Positions 39,745 through 49,605 of a stretch of DNA of 64,000 nt are shown piece by piece. The notes beneath the pieces are model-generated. The model saw only the letters and a program-made list of their open reading frames with translations. It did not search any database and was not told the DNA's origin. Both the position numbers and the translations under genes were made by a program. How positions within the stretch are numbered: the first letter of the stretch is position 1; every line of letters begins with the position of its first letter. The DNA is from Microbacterium sp. nov. GSS16 (GTDB lineage Bacteria; Actinomycetota; Actinomycetes; Actinomycetales; Microbacteriaceae), in assembly GCF_028198145.1 (NCBI RefSeq), contig NZ_CP116338.1, positions 806,001 to 870,000 of the forward strand, written 5' to 3'.

Positions 39745-41139
39745 TCAGCGGCGGCTGATCTGAGTGGTGATCTCGGTGACCTGGTTGTAGAGGGATCGAC
39801 GCTGCTTCATGAGCTCGCTGATCTTCTTGCAGGCGTACATCACGGTGGTGTGATCGCGGTTGCCGAAGAGCTGGCCGATCTTCGGCAGCGACAGGCTCGT
39901 GCGCTCACGGCACAGGTACATCGCGATCTGACGCGCGGTCGCGATCTGCTGCGACCGGCTCGATCCGTACAGGTCGTCGACCGTGAGCTTGAAGTAGGCC
40001 GCCGTCGCCGTGATGATGTCGGTCGGCGAGATGATGTTGTCTTCGGTGGTGTCGACGATGTCGCGCAGAACCGTCTGGGCCAGCGAGATGTCGAGCATCG
40101 AGCGGTTCAGGCTGGCGAACGCCGACACGCGGATGAGAGCGCCCTCGAGCTCGCGGATGTTCGAGGACACGACGGTCGCGATGTATTCGAGCACCTCGTC
40201 GGGGATGTGCAGCGACTCGCTCTGCGCCTTCTTCCGCAGGATCGCGATGCGGGTCTCCAGGTCGGGCGCCTGCACGTCGGTGATGAGGCCCCACTCGAAC
40301 CGGCTGCGCATGCGATCCTCGAAACCGGTGAGCAGCTTGGGAGCCACGTCACTGGTGATCACGACCTGCTTGTTGTGATCGTGCAACTGGTTGAAGGTGT
40401 GGAAGAACGCCTCCTGCGTCTCGGCGCGACCCTGCAGGAATTGGATGTCGTCGATCAGCAGGATGTCGACCTCGCGGTAGCGGCTCTGGAACGCGGCACC
40501 GCGGTTGTTGGCGATCGAGTTGATGAAGTCGTTCGTGAACTCCTCGCTCGAGACGTACCGCACCTTCACTCCTGCGTACAGCGACTGCGCGTAGTCGCCG
40601 ATCGCGTGCAGCAGGTGCGTCTTGCCGAGACCGGAGTCGCCGTAGATGAACAGCGGGTTGTAGGCCTTCGCCGGCGCCTCGGCGACGGCGACGGCCGCTG
40701 CATGAGCGAACCGGTTGGACTGGCCGATGACGAAGTTGTCGAAGGTGTACTTGGGGTTCAGACGCGACTCGTGGCGGACGGGAGCGGGCTGCTGCTCCAT
40801 GGGGGACTCGACGCGGGCCGGCTCGGCGAGCGGGAAATCGGAGACGGCGATCGGGGCGGTGGGCTGATCCACGAGTTCGTGATTCACGACGGTGCGGTAC
40901 GAGGCGACCTCGTCGCCGATCGCGGAGAGCGCCTCCATCATGGGCACGCGCAGCCGCTTGTTGATCTGCGCCGCCGTGAGGTCGTTCGGGACGTCCAGGT
41001 ACAGCACTCCGCCCATCACGCCGGCCGGCACGACCAGGCTCAGAAAGCCGTGCAGCTGAGGACTGACGCGATCATCTTCGGCGAGTCGTTCGAGCAGGGT
41101 CGACCAGATGGGCACATCGGGATGGGCGGCAGAGGTCAT
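39745..41139 (-). CDS. dnaA: Chromosomal replication initiator DnaA
   Basis: 464 residues. N-terminal DnaB-interaction domain, a shortish linker (residues 85-125), AAA+ domain with Walker A GDSGLGKTHLL and Walker B LLIDDIQF, and C-terminal DNA-binding domain with the signature GNRDHTTVMYA. It binds the DnaA boxes on both sides of its gene and opens oriC. Confidence 0.98.
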   Translation of the reverse strand: MTSAAHPDVPIWSTLLERLAEDDRVSPQLHGFLSLVVPAGVMGGVLYLDVPNDLTAAQINKRLRVPMMEALSAIGDEVASYRTVVNHELVDQPTAPIAVSDFPLAEPARVESPMEQQPAPVRHESRLNPKYTFDNFVIGQSNRFAHAAAVAVAEAPAKAYNPLFIYGDSGLGKTHLLHAIGDYAQSLYAGVKVRYVSSEEFTNDFINSIANNRGAAFQSRYREVDILLIDDIQFLQGRAETQEAFFHTFNQLHDHNKQVVITSDVAPKLLTGFEDRMRSRFEWGLITDVQAPDLETRIAILRKKAQSESLHIPDEVLEYIATVVSSNIRELEGALIRVSAFASLNRSMLDISLAQTVLRDIVDTTEDNIISPTDIITATAAYFKLTVDDLYGSSRSQQIATARQIAMYLCRERTSLSLPKIGQLFGNRDHTTVMYACKKISELMKQRRSLYNQVTEITTQISRR

Positions 41140-43904: not shown

Positions 43905-44531
43905 ATGACCAGCCCTTTGGTTGAGACTGAACCCGCGGCGGCCGTGGATATCTTCGGTGATCGCATTGAGTTGGCCCGATCGTTCACGAAAGCGCTGGTT
44001 GCCGAGGGCGAGCTTCGCGGGCTGATCGGGCCGCTCGAATTGCCTCGGATCTGGACACGACACATCCTGAACTCCGCCATCGCGGCACCTCTGTTCTCAG
44101 GGTCGGTCGCGGACGTCGGGTCCGGCGCGGGGCTCCCCGGTCTCGTTCTCGCTATCAGCCGGCCGGATGTGCAGTGGACCCTGATCGAACCGATGGACCG
44201 GCGGGTCACCTGGCTGAACGAGCAGGTCGAGGCCCTGGGTCTCGACAACGTGACGGTCATGCGGGCTCGGGCGGAGGACGTGGGTCTCGAATTCGACGTC
44301 GTCACCGCGCGCGCCGTCAGCGCCATGCGCACACTGGTGCCGATCACGGCTCCCCTCGTCAGGGACGGCGGCGAGCTGATCCTGCTCAAGGGTCACAACG
44401 TGCCGGCGGAGATCGAGTCGGCGCAGAAGGTGCTGAGGAAGCACAAGGTGACGGACGTGTCGGTCGAGGTGCTGGGGGAGGGCGTACTGTCTGAGCCCAC
44501 TCGAGTCGTCCGAGCCCGCGTCCGCGCCTGA
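43905..44531 (+). CDS. rsmG: 16S rRNA (guanine527-N7)-methyltransferase RsmG
   Basis: 208 residues. S-adenosylmethionine-binding motif VADVGSGAGLPGLVLAI, followed by LIEPMDRRVTWLNEQV and the catalytic-region VTARAVSAM. It methylates G527 of 16S rRNA; loss gives low-level streptomycin resistance. In most actinobacteria parA follows directly, but here 3.1 kb of mostly non-coding DNA intervene. Confidence 0.95.
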   Translation: MTSPLVETEPAAAVDIFGDRIELARSFTKALVAEGELRGLIGPLELPRIWTRHILNSAIAAPLFSGSVADVGSGAGLPGLVLAISRPDVQWTLIEPMDRRVTWLNEQVEALGLDNVTVMRARAEDVGLEFDVVTARAVSAMRTLVPITAPLVRDGGELILLKGHNVPAEIESAQKVLRKHKVTDVSVEVLGEGVLSEPTRVVRARVRA

Positions 44532-44548
44532 CGCGGCGTCCCGCTCCC

Positions 44549-44732
44549 CGGTCGTCGAGCGAGCGAAGCGAGTCGGAACGCGCGCGTCCCGCTCGGTCGA
44601 AGGCGTCTTTACCGTTTCGATGATGGTCCGCTTCCCGGTCGTTGAGCGAGCGAAGTGAGTCGAAACGCGCCCGTGATCTCGTGCATGTATTCTCCTTCCC
44701 TGTCGTCGAGGGAGACCAGCGAGTCGAAACGC
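44549..44732 (+). repeat. Three copies of the CGGTCGTTGAGCGAGCG repeat after rsmG
   Basis: Copies at 44549-44581, 44636-44668 and 44699-44732, each ending in GAGTCGAAACGC or close. They are the reverse complement of the cluster at 46871-47620. Confidence 0.7.
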
Positions 44733-44790
44733 CTGATGCCTGTTGACGATGTCCTCCTGCTGATTCGCCGTACCCGGAGACCGCCGACGA

Positions 44791-44806
44791 CGTTTCACGT
44801 GAAACG
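44791..44806. promoter_or_regulatory. parS site 1
   Basis: CGTTTCACGTGAAACG, the 14-bp parS core inside a perfect 16-bp palindrome. Binding site for ParB. Confidence 0.9.
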
Positions 44807-44918
44807 CTGCACCCCGTGGAGCACAAGGCCCCGGTTACGCAGAGCACGCATCCGCAGCCCCGCACTGACCGGCCCCCTAACCCAACGCCTGGTGTCGCGG
44901 TTCCCGACGCAACATGAG

Positions 44919-44934
44919 CGTTTCACGTGAAACG
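44919..44934. promoter_or_regulatory. parS site 2
   Basis: CGTTTCACGTGAAACG. Shares the flank CTGCAC with site 1, pointing to a local duplication. Confidence 0.9.
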
Positions 44935-45526
44935 CTGCACGGGAGACGCCGGTGAGCAGCAGAGATCCACCTGCGTGCTCTGCGGTTCAGTCAGCAGCGC
45001 GTCGACGAGACTCGGAGAACCATGCCTAGAACCCGGGCCCGGCGATCAATCCGACTTTGTTTGACGATGCGGCGCGGCAGACAAGAGAGTGATGTGTGAC
45101 TGAGTGTGCGCCACGCATTCTGCAGCGAACAATCTGTCACCGGACCACGCAGAAGTGCCGCTCCATCTGAGTGAACCCATCGCAGGCGGCCCCCACGTTC
45201 GCGGCGGAGGTCTAGCCGCCGTGCACCGCCTGAGCTGTGAGAGGGGTGTTGAGTGCTGGCCGAGGTCGCTCGCAGTGGATGCGACAACCGACGGTGCTTC
45301 TGCTGAATGATGTGCAGGTGCGGGCGTTGGAACCTATAGGTGTTCTCTCGAGATGTCGCTTACGCGGGTTGGACGCATGGGCATGCGATCGGTGCGCCTG
45401 CCCATCTGGCCGGCCCGCCGCCCTCGCGAGGTAAAGAGTTCCTGCACAGGTCCGCCCGGATGCAACTTCTCCACTAGCGCGGTTCAGCGCTCAACCACCA
45501 ACGGCAGGGATCCGAAAAGTTCCTGG

Positions 45527-45889
45527 ATGCATGGGTATATCCTGCGGTGTGCTGATGGAACGTTCTACGCGGGGAGCGCCAAGTATCTGGATGACCGCGT
45601 TGCGGCTCATCAACAAGGTCTGGGGAGCGCCTATACGACGAGCCGCCGGCCGGTGGAGTTGATCTGGTGGCTTGAGCTCGATTGTATCGACGAGGCCTTC
45701 GCTTTGGAGAAGCAGATCCAAGGATTGAGTCATGTCAGGCGCCTAGCCTTCGTGGAAGGTGGCTTCGATGCCATCAAGGGTGGACTGCTCGAGAGCGAGC
45801 CCTGCGAAAGAAGGTGTCAAGCCAGGATGACCGTTTCACGTGAAACATGTGGCGATCGCGGGCATGTGGAGGAGGTTGCCTCCACGTGA
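45527..45889 (+). CDS. GIY-YIG nuclease-superfamily protein
   Basis: 120 residues from the ATG in MHGYILRCADGTFYAGS; the frame upstream does not look coding. The fold-defining motifs are GYIL and YAGS, then YLDDRVAAHQQGLGSAYTT with the catalytic-type Arg and His, and EAFALEKQIQGLSHVRRLAF with the Glu; this is the UPF0213/YhbQ branch. Such proteins are predicted endonucleases with unknown target. It is the only gene between rsmG and parA, has less GC-rich codons than its neighbours, and its last 20 codons run through parS site 3. Confidence 0.75.
   Translation: MHGYILRCADGTFYAGSAKYLDDRVAAHQQGLGSAYTTSRRPVELIWWLELDCIDEAFALEKQIQGLSHVRRLAFVEGGFDAIKGGLLESEPCERRCQARMTVSRETCGDRGHVEEVAST
45832..45847. 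promoter_or_regulatory. parS site 3, inside the GIY-YIG 3' end
   Basis: CGTTTCACGTGAAACA, read by the gene as VSRET. Confidence 0.88.
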
Positions 45890-46008
45890 TTGAGACCTCA
45901 GCGGGGCGCTCGCGGGATCGATCGAAGCAAGACGGTCGAATCAGGCTTGTCGTTGCGCTGCTTTGTGGCTGAATGTTGCTGCGGATGAGCATGACAGCCG
46001 CGCGCACA

Positions 46009-46024
46009 TGTTTCACGTGGAACG
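46009..46024. promoter_or_regulatory. parS site 4, one mismatch in the core
   Basis: TGTTTCACGTGGAACG; the right half has G for A, so binding may be weaker. Confidence 0.65.
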
Positions 46025-46275
46025 GGAAGCGGACGTCACGCCGGAGACCAGGAGCGCTCGGCGGGCACCTAGCGCATCATTTCGAGGCGCCCTGAACGAC
46101 GAGCTGATTTATGCCCAGCGCGGTGGTCTGTCCGTGAGCGGTGGGGCGCGAAGCGTCCCGCGAGGGTGATTTGGGGTGCCGCGAACCGACGACAACTGAG
46201 TACGTCGGGTGTCGCAACGCGGTCGCGCGTGTAAACGCTACCTTGCGGCAAGCGGGAGGGTACCGGCGGCAGCAG

Positions 46276-46291
46276 TGTTTCACGTGAAACG
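46276..46291. promoter_or_regulatory. parS site 5
   Basis: TGTTTCACGTGAAACG, perfect core. Confidence 0.9.
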
Positions 46292-46725
46292 GTGACCGAC
46301 GAGCGTGCGCACCGATGCCGACGGCGTTTGTGTGCCCCGCGACCCTCGGTGCCCTTCTCATTCAGCGACCGGCTTTGAGTGTCGCAGCGGGGGACCGGTC
46401 GAGTAGGACGTCGCGCGCGAGACGGTCGTGCGCGCGTCGGGCGGCGCAGAGTCGCAACGCAGCCATTGCGGGACCTCGCCTCTGTGAGGCGAGTAGGAAG
46501 GCGGCGCCCATCCGGCACCCGCTGGGGTGCGGCTCAGCCCGCAGTGTCGAGCCTGTCGGGAGCTTCTCGCAGTGGTCATGAGTGGATTCCGGTTGTGTCC
46601 AGGTGCAACGGTGTGCCCAAAGGGATCTAGGGTCAGGATCGGCTGTCTCTGCATCTGCTGACCCCGTCGAGCCAGTGCTCGTGCAACGCCCGACGATCGC
46701 ACGCTCGCGGGAAAGTAGCGAAGCG

Positions 46726-46741
46726 CGTTTCACGTGAAACG
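46726..46741. promoter_or_regulatory. parS site 6
   Basis: CGTTTCACGTGAAACG, perfect core and palindrome. Confidence 0.9.
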
Positions 46742-47051
46742 GCAGTGAGCAGTGGCCGAAGCTTTCCCGGGCGGCCGCTACGGCGAGCACGTCTAGTATC
46801 CGCTCAACGACCGGTGGGTGGTGCTGCGTCCGTGAAGCTGCCTGGTCAGGGCGATCGAGAGCCGCGGGGGAATCTCGCGTCGTCGCTGCCCTCCTCGCTC
46901 AGTGACCCGGCTGTGGGTCGTCCACCGCGGACATCGTGCTTAGTGGTTGCGCATCTCGCTCTCATTGACCGCGGAGGAGCCTTCTTTGGTGCAGCTCGCA
47001 TTTCGTCTCGTCGCTGCGCTCCTCCCTCAATGGCCAGAGGGGCTGGTTGCA

Positions 47052-47067
47052 TGTTTCACGTGAAACG
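47052..47067. promoter_or_regulatory. parS site 7
   Basis: TGTTTCACGTGAAACG, perfect core, between repeat units. Confidence 0.9.
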
Positions 47068-47463
47068 TGCGTTCTGGTTCGTGACTGAGCTCCTCGGTCG
47101 GCAACTGGGAGATGTTCCTGCATCCGTCAAGCTGGCTAGCCAGGCGGCGGATCGCTGCGGACCATTTCGTCTGGTCGCTGCGCTCTTCGCTCAATGACCG
47201 CGTCGGGGCGTCGGGGGTTGCGGAACTTGTTCGCCGCTTCGCTCTGCGATCAGTGACCTGCGGGGCGTCGTGGATCGGACCATTTCGTCTCATCGCTGCG
47301 CTCCTCGCCCAATGACCGGACCGTGGGTTGTCGACCGGGTACATCGTGCCGCGCGGCTGTGCGTTTCGCTCTCATTGACTCGCGAGGAATGCGCTGGAGT
47401 AGCGAGCATTCGACTCGTCGCTGCGCTCCTCGCTCAATGACCGAGCGGGGGAGTGGGACGGCA

Positions 47464-47479
47464 TGTTTCACGTGAAACA
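47464..47479. promoter_or_regulatory. parS site 8
   Basis: TGTTTCACGTGAAACA, the exact 16-bp consensus. Confidence 0.93.
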
Positions 47480-47659
47480 AGCATTTCGACTCGTCGCTGC
47501 GCTCCTCGCTCAATGACCGAGTTTGGGGCGTCGTGGGTGGGACATCTCGTCTCGACCCTTCGTTCTTCGCTCAATGACCGTGGCATTTCATCCCCTCGTT
47601 GCGCTCCCTGGTTTATGACCCGGGGGTGGCACGGACGGGGGAGTGGTGGAGGGATCACG

Positions 47660-47665
47660 TAGAGT
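47660..47665 (+). promoter_or_regulatory. Possible -10 element of parAB
   Basis: TAGAGT, giving a leader of about 18 bases with AAGGAG before the parA ATG. Confidence 0.4.
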
Positions 47666-47689
47666 GGATGGCGGTCCCGAAAGGAGTCG

Positions 47690-48622
47690 ATGTTTCACGT
47701 GAAACCATCCGACAATGCATCGCCGAACCAGGATTTCGGGATGGATACCCCGCTCGCTCGGGAACTGGCCGACCTATCCTCACGACGCAAGGCGCTCAAG
47801 ACCGTCGAGGTCCGATTCACCGGAGATACGCGCGTCTTCACGGTGTCGAATCAGAAGGGTGGGGTTGGCAAGACCACGACCGCCGTCAATTTGGCATCCG
47901 CTCTTGCTGATCTAGGTGCCAAGGTGCTCGTGATCGACCTCGACCCGCAAGGAAACGCCTCGACGGCGCTCGGCGTGACGCATTCCGCTGACACGAAGAG
48001 CATCTACGACGTGCTGATCAACGACCTCCCGTTCGGAGAGATCGTGCAGGACAGCCCGGAATCCGAGAACCTGCGCTGCGCGCCCAGCACGATTCACCTT
48101 GCCGGCGCCGAGATCGAACTCGTGTCGCAGGTCGCGCGAGAATTCCGGCTGCGCCGTGCGCTCGAGGAGTATCTGCGCGACAACCCGGTCGACTTCGTCA
48201 TCATCGACTGCCCGCCATCCCTCGGCCTGCTCACCATCAACGCGTTCACCGCGGCATCCGAGGTGCTCATCCCCATCCAGTGCGAGTATTACGCGCTCGA
48301 AGGCCTGAGTCAGTTGCTCGGCAGCATCCAGATGATCCAGAAACACCTCAACCCCGAGCTTCACCTGTCGACCATCCTGCTCACGATGTACGACGCGCGC
48401 ACGCGCCTCGCCCAGCAAGTGGCCGACGAGGTGCGAACCCACTTCCCGCAGCAGGTGCTCAAGGCCGTGATCCCGCGCTCGGTGCGGGTATCCGAGGCCC
48501 CCAGCTTCGGACAGACCGTCATTTCGTACGACGGCACGTCGGCGGGGGCGGTCGCCTACCGGGAAGCAGCAGTCGAGATCGCGCAGCGCAAGGAATCCGC
48601 CGCGCAGAACAAGGGAGCATGA
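47690..48622 (+). CDS. parA: Chromosome-partitioning ATPase ParA (Soj)
   Basis: 310 residues from the ATG with AAAGGAG six bases upstream; a second ATG at 47741 lacks this. Deviant Walker A KGGVGKTTTAVNLA, Walker A' VLVIDLDPQGNAST and Walker B FVIIDCPPSLG. It forms ATP-dependent dimers on the nucleoid that move ParB-parS complexes. The first codons (MFHVKP) are a parS site, so ParB binding could cover the translation start region of the DNA and repress the promoter. Confidence 0.96.
   Translation: MFHVKPSDNASPNQDFGMDTPLARELADLSSRRKALKTVEVRFTGDTRVFTVSNQKGGVGKTTTAVNLASALADLGAKVLVIDLDPQGNASTALGVTHSADTKSIYDVLINDLPFGEIVQDSPESENLRCAPSTIHLAGAEIELVSQVAREFRLRRALEEYLRDNPVDFVIIDCPPSLGLLTINAFTAASEVLIPIQCEYYALEGLSQLLGSIQMIQKHLNPELHLSTILLTMYDARTRLAQQVADEVRTHFPQQVLKAVIPRSVRVSEAPSFGQTVISYDGTSAGAVAYREAAVEIAQRKESAAQNKGA
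47691..47706. promoter_or_regulatory. parS site 9, overlapping the parA start codon
   Basis: TGTTTCACGTGAAACC, beginning at the second base of the parA ATG and covering codons 1-6. Confidence 0.9.
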
Positions 48623-49605
48623 TGGCCAAGCGCACTGGACTCGGTCGGGGAATCGGCGCACTCATTCCGACGACGGATCAGGCTGAGCGCCCGGTCGACG
48701 TCTTCTTCCCGGGCGCGGCGAAGGTGAAGACGGATGCCACACCCCCGCAGCCTGAGGAACTCACGCCCACCCCCGATGAGGCGGAGCTCTCGCAGGTGCC
48801 CGGGGTGCGTCTGATTCAGGTCGACCCGAACCGCATCGTCCCTAATCCCCGTCAGCCGCGCACGCATTTCGACGAGGACCACCTCGCTGAGCTCGTGCAC
48901 AGCGTGAAGGAGTTCGGCGTCCTGCAGCCGGTGATCGTCCGGCAGAACTCCGATGGCGAGTACGAGCTGATCATGGGCGAGCGTCGTACCCGCGCCGCTC
49001 GCGAGGCCGGCCTCGCCACGATTCCCGCGATTCTGCGCGAGACGGCAGACGAGGACCTGCTGCGCGACGCGCTTCTTGAGAATCTGCACCGCTCCCAGCT
49101 GAACCCCCTCGAGGAGGCCTCCGCCTACCAGCAGCTGCTGGAAGACTTCGGCATCACGCAGGAAGAGCTCGCTGCCCGCATCGGTCGCTCGCGACCGCAG
49201 ATCAGCAACACCATCCGACTTCTGCGTCTGCCGGTCCCGGTGCAGCAGCGCGTCGCTGCCGGAGTGCTTTCGGCCGGCCATGCGCGTGCAATTCTGTCGG
49301 TCGAGACGCCGGAGCAGATGCAGCGCCTCGCTGACAAGGTCGTGAATGAAGACCTCTCCGTCCGAGCCACCGAGGCCGCGGCCAAGTCCATGCCCACCGC
49401 GGCCGGCTCGTCGACAAAGCCCACTGCCGGCGCGCGCCGCGCCTACCTCGACGAGGTCTCCCACAAGCTCGGTGATCGCCTCAACACTCGGGTCAAGATC
49501 GACCTCGGCGCACGAAAAGGCCAGCTCAAGATCGAATTCGCGTCGATCCAGGACCTCAACCGCATTCTCGCCGAGATCGGTGAAGAGGAGTTCGGATCGC
49601 GCTGA
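48622..49605 (+). CDS. parB: Chromosome-partitioning protein ParB (Spo0J)
   Basis: 327 residues from the second of two adjacent ATGs (GGGAG five bases away); the first at 48619 overlaps the parA stop as well. N-terminal ParA-stimulating stretch KRTGLGRGIGALIP, the CTP-binding ParB/Srx domain (PNPRQPRTHFDEDHLAEL, GERRTRAAREAGL), the helix-turn-helix ITQEELAARIGRSRPQISNT and a C-terminal dimerisation domain. It binds the parS sites listed here and spreads as a clamp. Its last codons are the first unit of a tandem repeat. Confidence 0.97.
   Translation: MAKRTGLGRGIGALIPTTDQAERPVDVFFPGAAKVKTDATPPQPEELTPTPDEAELSQVPGVRLIQVDPNRIVPNPRQPRTHFDEDHLAELVHSVKEFGVLQPVIVRQNSDGEYELIMGERRTRAAREAGLATIPAILRETADEDLLRDALLENLHRSQLNPLEEASAYQQLLEDFGITQEELAARIGRSRPQISNTIRLLRLPVPVQQRVAAGVLSAGHARAILSVETPEQMQRLADKVVNEDLSVRATEAAAKSMPTAAGSSTKPTAGARRAYLDEVSHKLGDRLNTRVKIDLGARKGQLKIEFASIQDLNRILAEIGEEEFGSR

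Follow-up and report, generated by a model that had tools for sequence, protein, structure and literature searches.

The stretch of DNA analysed here, referred to as the window, comprises 64,000 nucleotides of the chromosome of Microbacterium sp. nov. GSS16 (contig NZ_CP116338.1, positions 806,001 to 870,000; coordinates are counted from the first letter of the window) and carries, between rsmG and the partition gene parA, a block of nine parS sites, the predicted loading sites of the partition protein ParB. The left border of this block is rsmG (gidB; 43905..44531, forward strand; PF02527) and the right border is parA (47690..48622, forward strand; PF13614), which adjoins parB (48622..49605, forward strand). 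In a pattern search allowing up to 2 mismatches in 16 positions, nine parS-like matches were found in the window, compared to 0.00 expected from 100 shuffles, and all nine start exactly where a preceding reading of the same letters, hereafter the sequence-only reading, had placed them. The exact 14-bp core GTTTCACGTGAAAC is present in the eight sites at 44791..44806, 44919..44934, 45832..45847, 46276..46291, 46726..46741, 47052..47067, 47464..47479 and 47691..47706, and the remaining site at 46009..46024 differs by one change (GTTTCACGTGGAAC), which is the commonest one-mismatch variant of the loci that we compared. The third site lies within the 3' end of an open reading frame (ORF) for a GIY-YIG nuclease, the seventh and the eighth, the latter being the sole full match to the palindrome TGTTTCACGTGAAACA, lie in the left and the right copy of a ~410-bp duplication, respectively, and the ninth occupies the first codons of parA (ATG TTT CAC GTG AAA). 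The start-to-start spacings are 128, 913, 177, 267, 450, 326, 412 and 227 bp; helical phasing of the sites was rejected, as these spacings, judged by eye, have no common 10.5-bp phase.

The search was extended to the complete genome, a single contig of 2,906,279 bp. With 0-1 mismatch, just the nine window sites were retrieved, and two extra matches at 2 mismatches are each located more than 1 Mb from the block. The palindrome thus occurs in several copies, above chance and in the sole cluster of this genome. Since the nine sites are the only ones in the genome with 0-1 mismatch, the predicted ParB-loading centromere is one block of 2.9 kb. The proposal of a compact single parS block beside parAB near the origin was thus borne out, and the many additional parS elsewhere that would have refuted it are absent at 0-1 mismatch. 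The ParB protein has an N-terminal, a helix-turn-helix and a dimerisation domain (ParB_N, HTH_ParB and ParB_C in Pfam) and carries the sequence GERRTRA, which we take to fit the GxxRxxA motif for binding of cytidine triphosphate (CTP); its closest named match is the ParB of M. commune (89%, L001). ParB-CTP clamps load at parS, slide, recruit SMC and are moved by ParA.

The origin region is marked by dnaA (39745..41139, reverse strand), which was named by sequence and gene order, without a family search. Exact matches to the DnaA box flank dnaA on both sides (2 and 3, respectively). With such boxes on the rnpA side as well as on the dnaN side, the distance of the parS block from the likely oriC is ~3-8 kb. 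The closeness claimed by the sequence-only reading is therefore retained, and its range of 5-8 kb is replaced by one that depends on which side oriC is placed. The same reading described the rsmG-parA interval as one gene-poor block. Gene-poor it is, but not gene-free, as the GIY-YIG ORF lies inside and the site at 47691 sits in parA codons. This ORF codes for a single-domain protein of 120 amino acids (45527..45889, forward strand; PF01541, E 1e-11), with an uncertain start codon in a frame open from 45353 and no NCBIfam match. The three other block ORFs scanned, 46745-47197 on the forward strand and 46362-46790 and 44991-45287 on the reverse strand, matched no Pfam family at E 0.01, leaving the GIY-YIG ORF as the one credible gene among those scanned. 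No RNA family reached the gathering score within 36-52 kb, no sigma-70-type promoter was found within 44.3-47.8 kb, and the two terminator-like matches in the latter region, each overlapping a parS, were as many as in shuffles.

In order to judge how unusual such a block is, we counted parS in related genomes. The sequence-only reading had assumed that most bacteria spread a few parS widely, which conflicts with PMC8357415 and PMC5815017: according to the former, wide scattering is restricted to few lineages, and according to the latter, the five strongest sites of Caulobacter lie in 5 kb. Microbacterium relatives are about as compact as the window. In 14 of 16 Microbacterium genomes (15 hand-picked genomes of named loci plus the window genome), the whole-genome count at 0-1 mismatch equalled the count in the parS locus, the two exceptions (L065 and L072) having one extra parS each outside the locus. 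Among 366 genomes of the same genus, the number of exact parS ranged from 0 to 15 with a median of 6; the window genome has 8, at least 8 were present in 98 genomes, and none in 11, 10 of which are less than 90% complete. At the level of the family, 116 of 120 genomes contained parS with 0-1 mismatch, with 2-6 sites in 91, more in 22, one in 3 and none in 4. Compactness is thus common in these relatives, with exceptions nearby, which agrees better with the two papers than with the premise of wide spreading. In summary, the predicted ParABS centromere of the window is genuine, and it is both complete and compact; it belongs to an ordinary kind and is dense without being unique.

Several of the genomes showed other arrangements. 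Four family members (G396 with locus L150, G477, G407, and G412 with locus L145) have a ParB match yet no parS with 0-1 mismatch, and their centromere motif may differ. Two genomes of 1.4-1.5 Mb from a genus of the same family (G385 and G468, genus g6) have 12 and 9 such sites, which do not form one block but are scattered across 100 kb or across several contigs. Within the same order, G691 carries 27 exact parS across ~430 kb, unlike its compact relatives, and two members of another family (f3), L181 (G669) and L182 (G642), carry 17 exact parS in ~9 kb and 12 in ~2 kb of sequence around parAB, respectively; in L182, ten of them follow parB, separated from each other by 45-153 bp. A minimal centromere of three exact parS, 26-57 bp apart, was found in L063, L065, L067, L070, L072 and L073, where the rsmG-parA interval measures 108-138 bp, one parS lies at the rsmG stop codon and another near the rsmG start.

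The block is located between fixed genes, rsmG and parA, yet its length and content differ between species. Both borders were present in 73 sequences, namely the window and 72 of 80 loci (8 loci lacked an RsmG match), and in these the interval measured 89 to 4,464 bp and contained 1 to 11 exact parS. The number of exact parS rose with interval length (Spearman 0.83), and phylogenetic contrasts on an RsmG+ParA+ParB tree gave r values of 0.55 for exact sites and 0.62 for sites with 0-1 mismatch (119 contrasts). For 36 of the 73 intervals, among them 32 of the 47 with a length of at least 1 kb, the best other interval covered less than 25%, and exact parS still persisted. The interval thus turns over quickly among relatives while its boxes are conserved, though intervals of close groups still align (e.g. 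L057/L059 and L006/L008/L010). Its median length was 1,376 bp in 74 Microbacterium-group sequences, including L037, L064 and L076 that are filed under other titles, versus 110 bp in 59 other family genomes, which are those of 118 taken with full flanks. Eleven of these 59 (L152-L155, L159, L161-L166), from genera nearest in ParB, have intervals of 1-3.3 kb, which rules out a long interval as a Microbacterium-only trait and implies an expansion that either predates the genus or was repeated. The comparison of relatives suggested by the sequence-only reading showed a block of widely varying length between the same two genes, and did not support the claim of special compactness.

Some of this variation bears marks of tandem duplication. 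In the window, the left copy (46872..47093) and the right copy (47282..47506), offset by ~410 bp and containing one parS each, are identical in 165 of 220 aligned bases (75%); with the parS masked, their alignment scored 89.5 compared to a mean of 14.0 (standard deviation 2.4, maximum 24) in 500 shuffles. In 11 of 73 intervals (L001, L006, L011, L027, L029, L030, L036, L050, L066, L068 and L078), units detected by Tandem Repeats Finder contained a parS, with units of 88 bp at 100% match in L078 and of 226 bp at 92% in L006. Head-to-tail units with a binding box, as in satellites, are hence present in these 11 intervals, and the window has a single 75%-identical pair, not an array. Of the 45 genomes that have three or more spacers, 18 showed similarity between spacers at z>7. 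Duplication is therefore documented for some parS and presumed for the remainder.

Two parS positions recur between species. The site at the parA start, with 0-1 mismatch, is shared by 63 of 74 Microbacterium-group sequences and reads ATGTTTCACG in 58 and GTGTTTCACG in 4 of the 62 that were aligned; in the same 62 sequences, the parA leader with its ribosome-binding site (47653..47689, forward strand, in the window) is conserved, with shared 12-mers. A second site, located at the start of rsmG or immediately ahead of it, is present in 56 of 74 sequences, being exact in L050 and L065 and with one mismatch in L001 and L007. It is absent from the window, where we infer that it was lost while the block was gained. 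Sites beyond parB occur in 19 of 74 sequences. Over 144 sequences, 57 of 84 one-mismatch parS carry the same half-site change, T4>C, giving GTTCCACGTGAAAC or GTTTCACGTGGAAC, as in the window variant; as the sequences are related, the 84 sites cannot be treated as independent, and the count is inflated. This dominance fits a tolerance of only some changes and argues that the T4>C variant is tolerated or functional and that other changes are removed.

Besides parS, the rsmG-parA interval contains two types of repeats. A 28-bp repeat (e.g. TCGTCGCTGCGCTCCTCGCTCAATGACC) is present in ten copies of at least 66% identity at 46343..47579 (forward strand), and 6 of the 8 genome matches to its 24-bp core (up to 3 mismatches) lie inside the block, which makes a genome-wide density of repetitive extragenic palindromic (REP) elements unlikely as its source. 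Three copies of a REP-like repeat of the GGTCGTTGAGCGAGCGAAGCGAGTCGAAACG type follow rsmG at 44541..44738 (forward strand), accounting for 2 of 6 genome matches (up to 3 mismatches). In other species a REP-like motif is found genome-wide, with 160 matches in G375 and 69 in G371.

Homologues of the GIY-YIG gene were found in the rsmG-parA interval of 9 of 80 loci, in reverse orientation in L003, and somewhere in the genome in 62 of 149 genus genomes. For analysis of their surroundings, we took the 30 best matches of the genus search; 23 of these and six more make up 29 distinct loci outside parS blocks. The 350-bp flanks of the gene shared a repeat (score of at least 20) in 27 of these 29 loci versus 1 of 56 controls shifted by 850 bp. 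A comparison with 500-bp flanks used 357 random controls, whose intergenic position was unmatched; 29 of 30 exceeded their 99th percentile, with one place counted twice (L172/L199). For copies inside parS blocks the signal was mixed, as 4 of 7 passed the flank-repeat test and the window copy did not (score 11.5, L184). Most of the flank repeats inspected belonged to the GTTTCGTCTCGCTTCGCTCGCTCAACGACC type or resembled it (L171, L172, L173, L175, L179 and L180), the motif being absent from L176 and weak at L178. The observation outside parS blocks concerns L171, L173, L176, L178-L180 and L191-L213. These results amount to a strong association between GIY-YIG genes and REP-like repeats, with any mobility putative, and suggest that the small single-domain GIY-YIG genes of Microbacterium represent a REP-associated nuclease system unlike that of the REP-associated tyrosine transposases (RAYTs). 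The two resemble each other in having short extragenic palindromes beside a small nuclease-type gene (PMC2817692, PMC3733652), but RAYTs are tyrosine transposases, whereas the window gene codes for a GIY-YIG nuclease. A term search of PMC3733652 gave no occurrence of GIY, Actinobacteria, Microbacterium, Clavibacter, Leifsonia or Micrococc, and the titles of the literature matches listed, in which subscription journals are thinly covered, included no work dealing with the turnover of parS in Microbacterium or with REP-flanked GIY-YIG genes. A further reading, which we regard as quite improbable, is that the REP-like family and the small nuclease nest in the Microbacterium centromere and that the repeats initiate the tandem duplications by which parS are multiplied; the centromere would in this case grow like the satellite-rich, transposon-fed centromeres of eukaryotes; the nuclease would then be a non-homologous counterpart of RAYT transposases.

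We consider it highly probable that the block is the only centromere of this chromosome, with nine predicted ParB-loading sites in 2.9 kb beside parAB, and that it is labile and has grown partly by duplication. Three other explanations were weighed. The interval could be shaped by neutral drift only, as a dump for REP-like repeats and a GIY-YIG element in which extra parS ride along with duplications while one or two sites, at the parA start and the rsmG start, do the work. REP-like repeats and GIY-YIG ORFs do co-occur between rsmG and parA, both in the window and in 9 of 80 loci, a single parS is enough in Corynebacterium glutamicum (PMC7083940), and no more than 2-3 sites are present in some relatives; but neutral passengers should decay everywhere, whereas exact 14-bp palindromes persist where spacers fail to align, one change dominates the one-mismatch copies (with the reservation on independence made above), and the median over 366 genomes is 6 exact sites. 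We therefore regard drift alone as unlikely.

Selection for dose, by which more sites would raise ParB loading or the flux of SMC, e.g. in fast growth, and the length of the interval would follow, is a possible explanation, though a rather doubtful one. It would account for interval length and parS number tracking each other, and clustered strong sites have been proposed to avoid SMC collisions in Bacillus subtilis (PMC8357415), but close relatives differ in dose: L006, L008 and L010 have 8, 3 and 2 exact sites in the interval and 9, 6 and 6 in the whole locus. That the parS mainly serve as operators of parAB transcription, not as a centromere, is very improbable: the frequent site at the parA start and the conserved leader would suit this function, but sites 3 kb upstream are needless for it, others lie beyond parB, and the genome is without any other site of 0-1 mismatch.

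According to the centromere reading that we favour, ParB-CTP clamps would load at each parS and slide across the mostly non-coding spacers. With all loaders in one place, ParA would pull at one point and SMC would start at one point, which would result in fewer SMC collisions. The block would grow partly via tandem duplication of parS-carrying units, whose spacers decay while selection keeps the parS cores, and parS number would then reflect interval length and a mild benefit of redundancy rather than a finely tuned design.

A number of observations weigh against this reading. In 27 of 45 genomes no two spacers are alike at z>7, and of the 15 pairs in the window one is; with so few alike pairs, most sites are without a proven origin by duplication. 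The correlation from contrasts is below the raw one and comes from a midpoint-rooted tree of 120 of the 144 sequences. Since a longer interval has more room for sites, the correlation alone is no proof of mechanism. With regard to turnover, 26 of 73 intervals are shorter than 1 kb, a coverage of 25% is reached in 15 of the other 47, and close relatives align. The parS are placed somewhat more evenly than at random (median p 0.22 over 47 genomes, Kolmogorov-Smirnov p 1e-7), but the effect is mild, with individual p<0.05 in 7 of the 47 genomes, and strict even spacing was set aside as weakly supported. ParB binding, SMC loading and segregation in this organism are themselves predictions from sequence.

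Among known systems, the actinobacterium C. glutamicum is similar in having about ten parS clustered near oriC and a ParABS system with SMC loading at parS, the latter being predicted here; its ten sites recruit ParB, and one suffices for wild-type-like growth (PMC7083940). They are distributed over 35 kb, at 73 kb from oriC, in contrast to the window, where nine sites occupy 2.9 kb next to parA, at a distance of 3-8 kb from the dnaA region. Caulobacter crescentus shares the compactness near the origin, but its sites lie in essential or costly genes (PMC5815017), whereas here most of them lie in a long non-coding interval whose length varies between species. B. subtilis has eight sites and ParB-dependent SMC loading, again predicted here, but its sites extend across ~0.75 Mb (PMC8357415).

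The expansion of centromere-like regions has been named an interesting question (PMC5815017). The rsmG-parA interval represents a natural allele series at one fixed address, ranging from ~0.1 to 4.5 kb and containing duplications of several ages, so that, with the locus left in its place, the number and spacing of parS can be tested against segregation, the size of ParB clusters and the loading of SMC. The window block is notable as one allele of this fast-changing series, a natural experiment on the expansion of a bacterial centromere.

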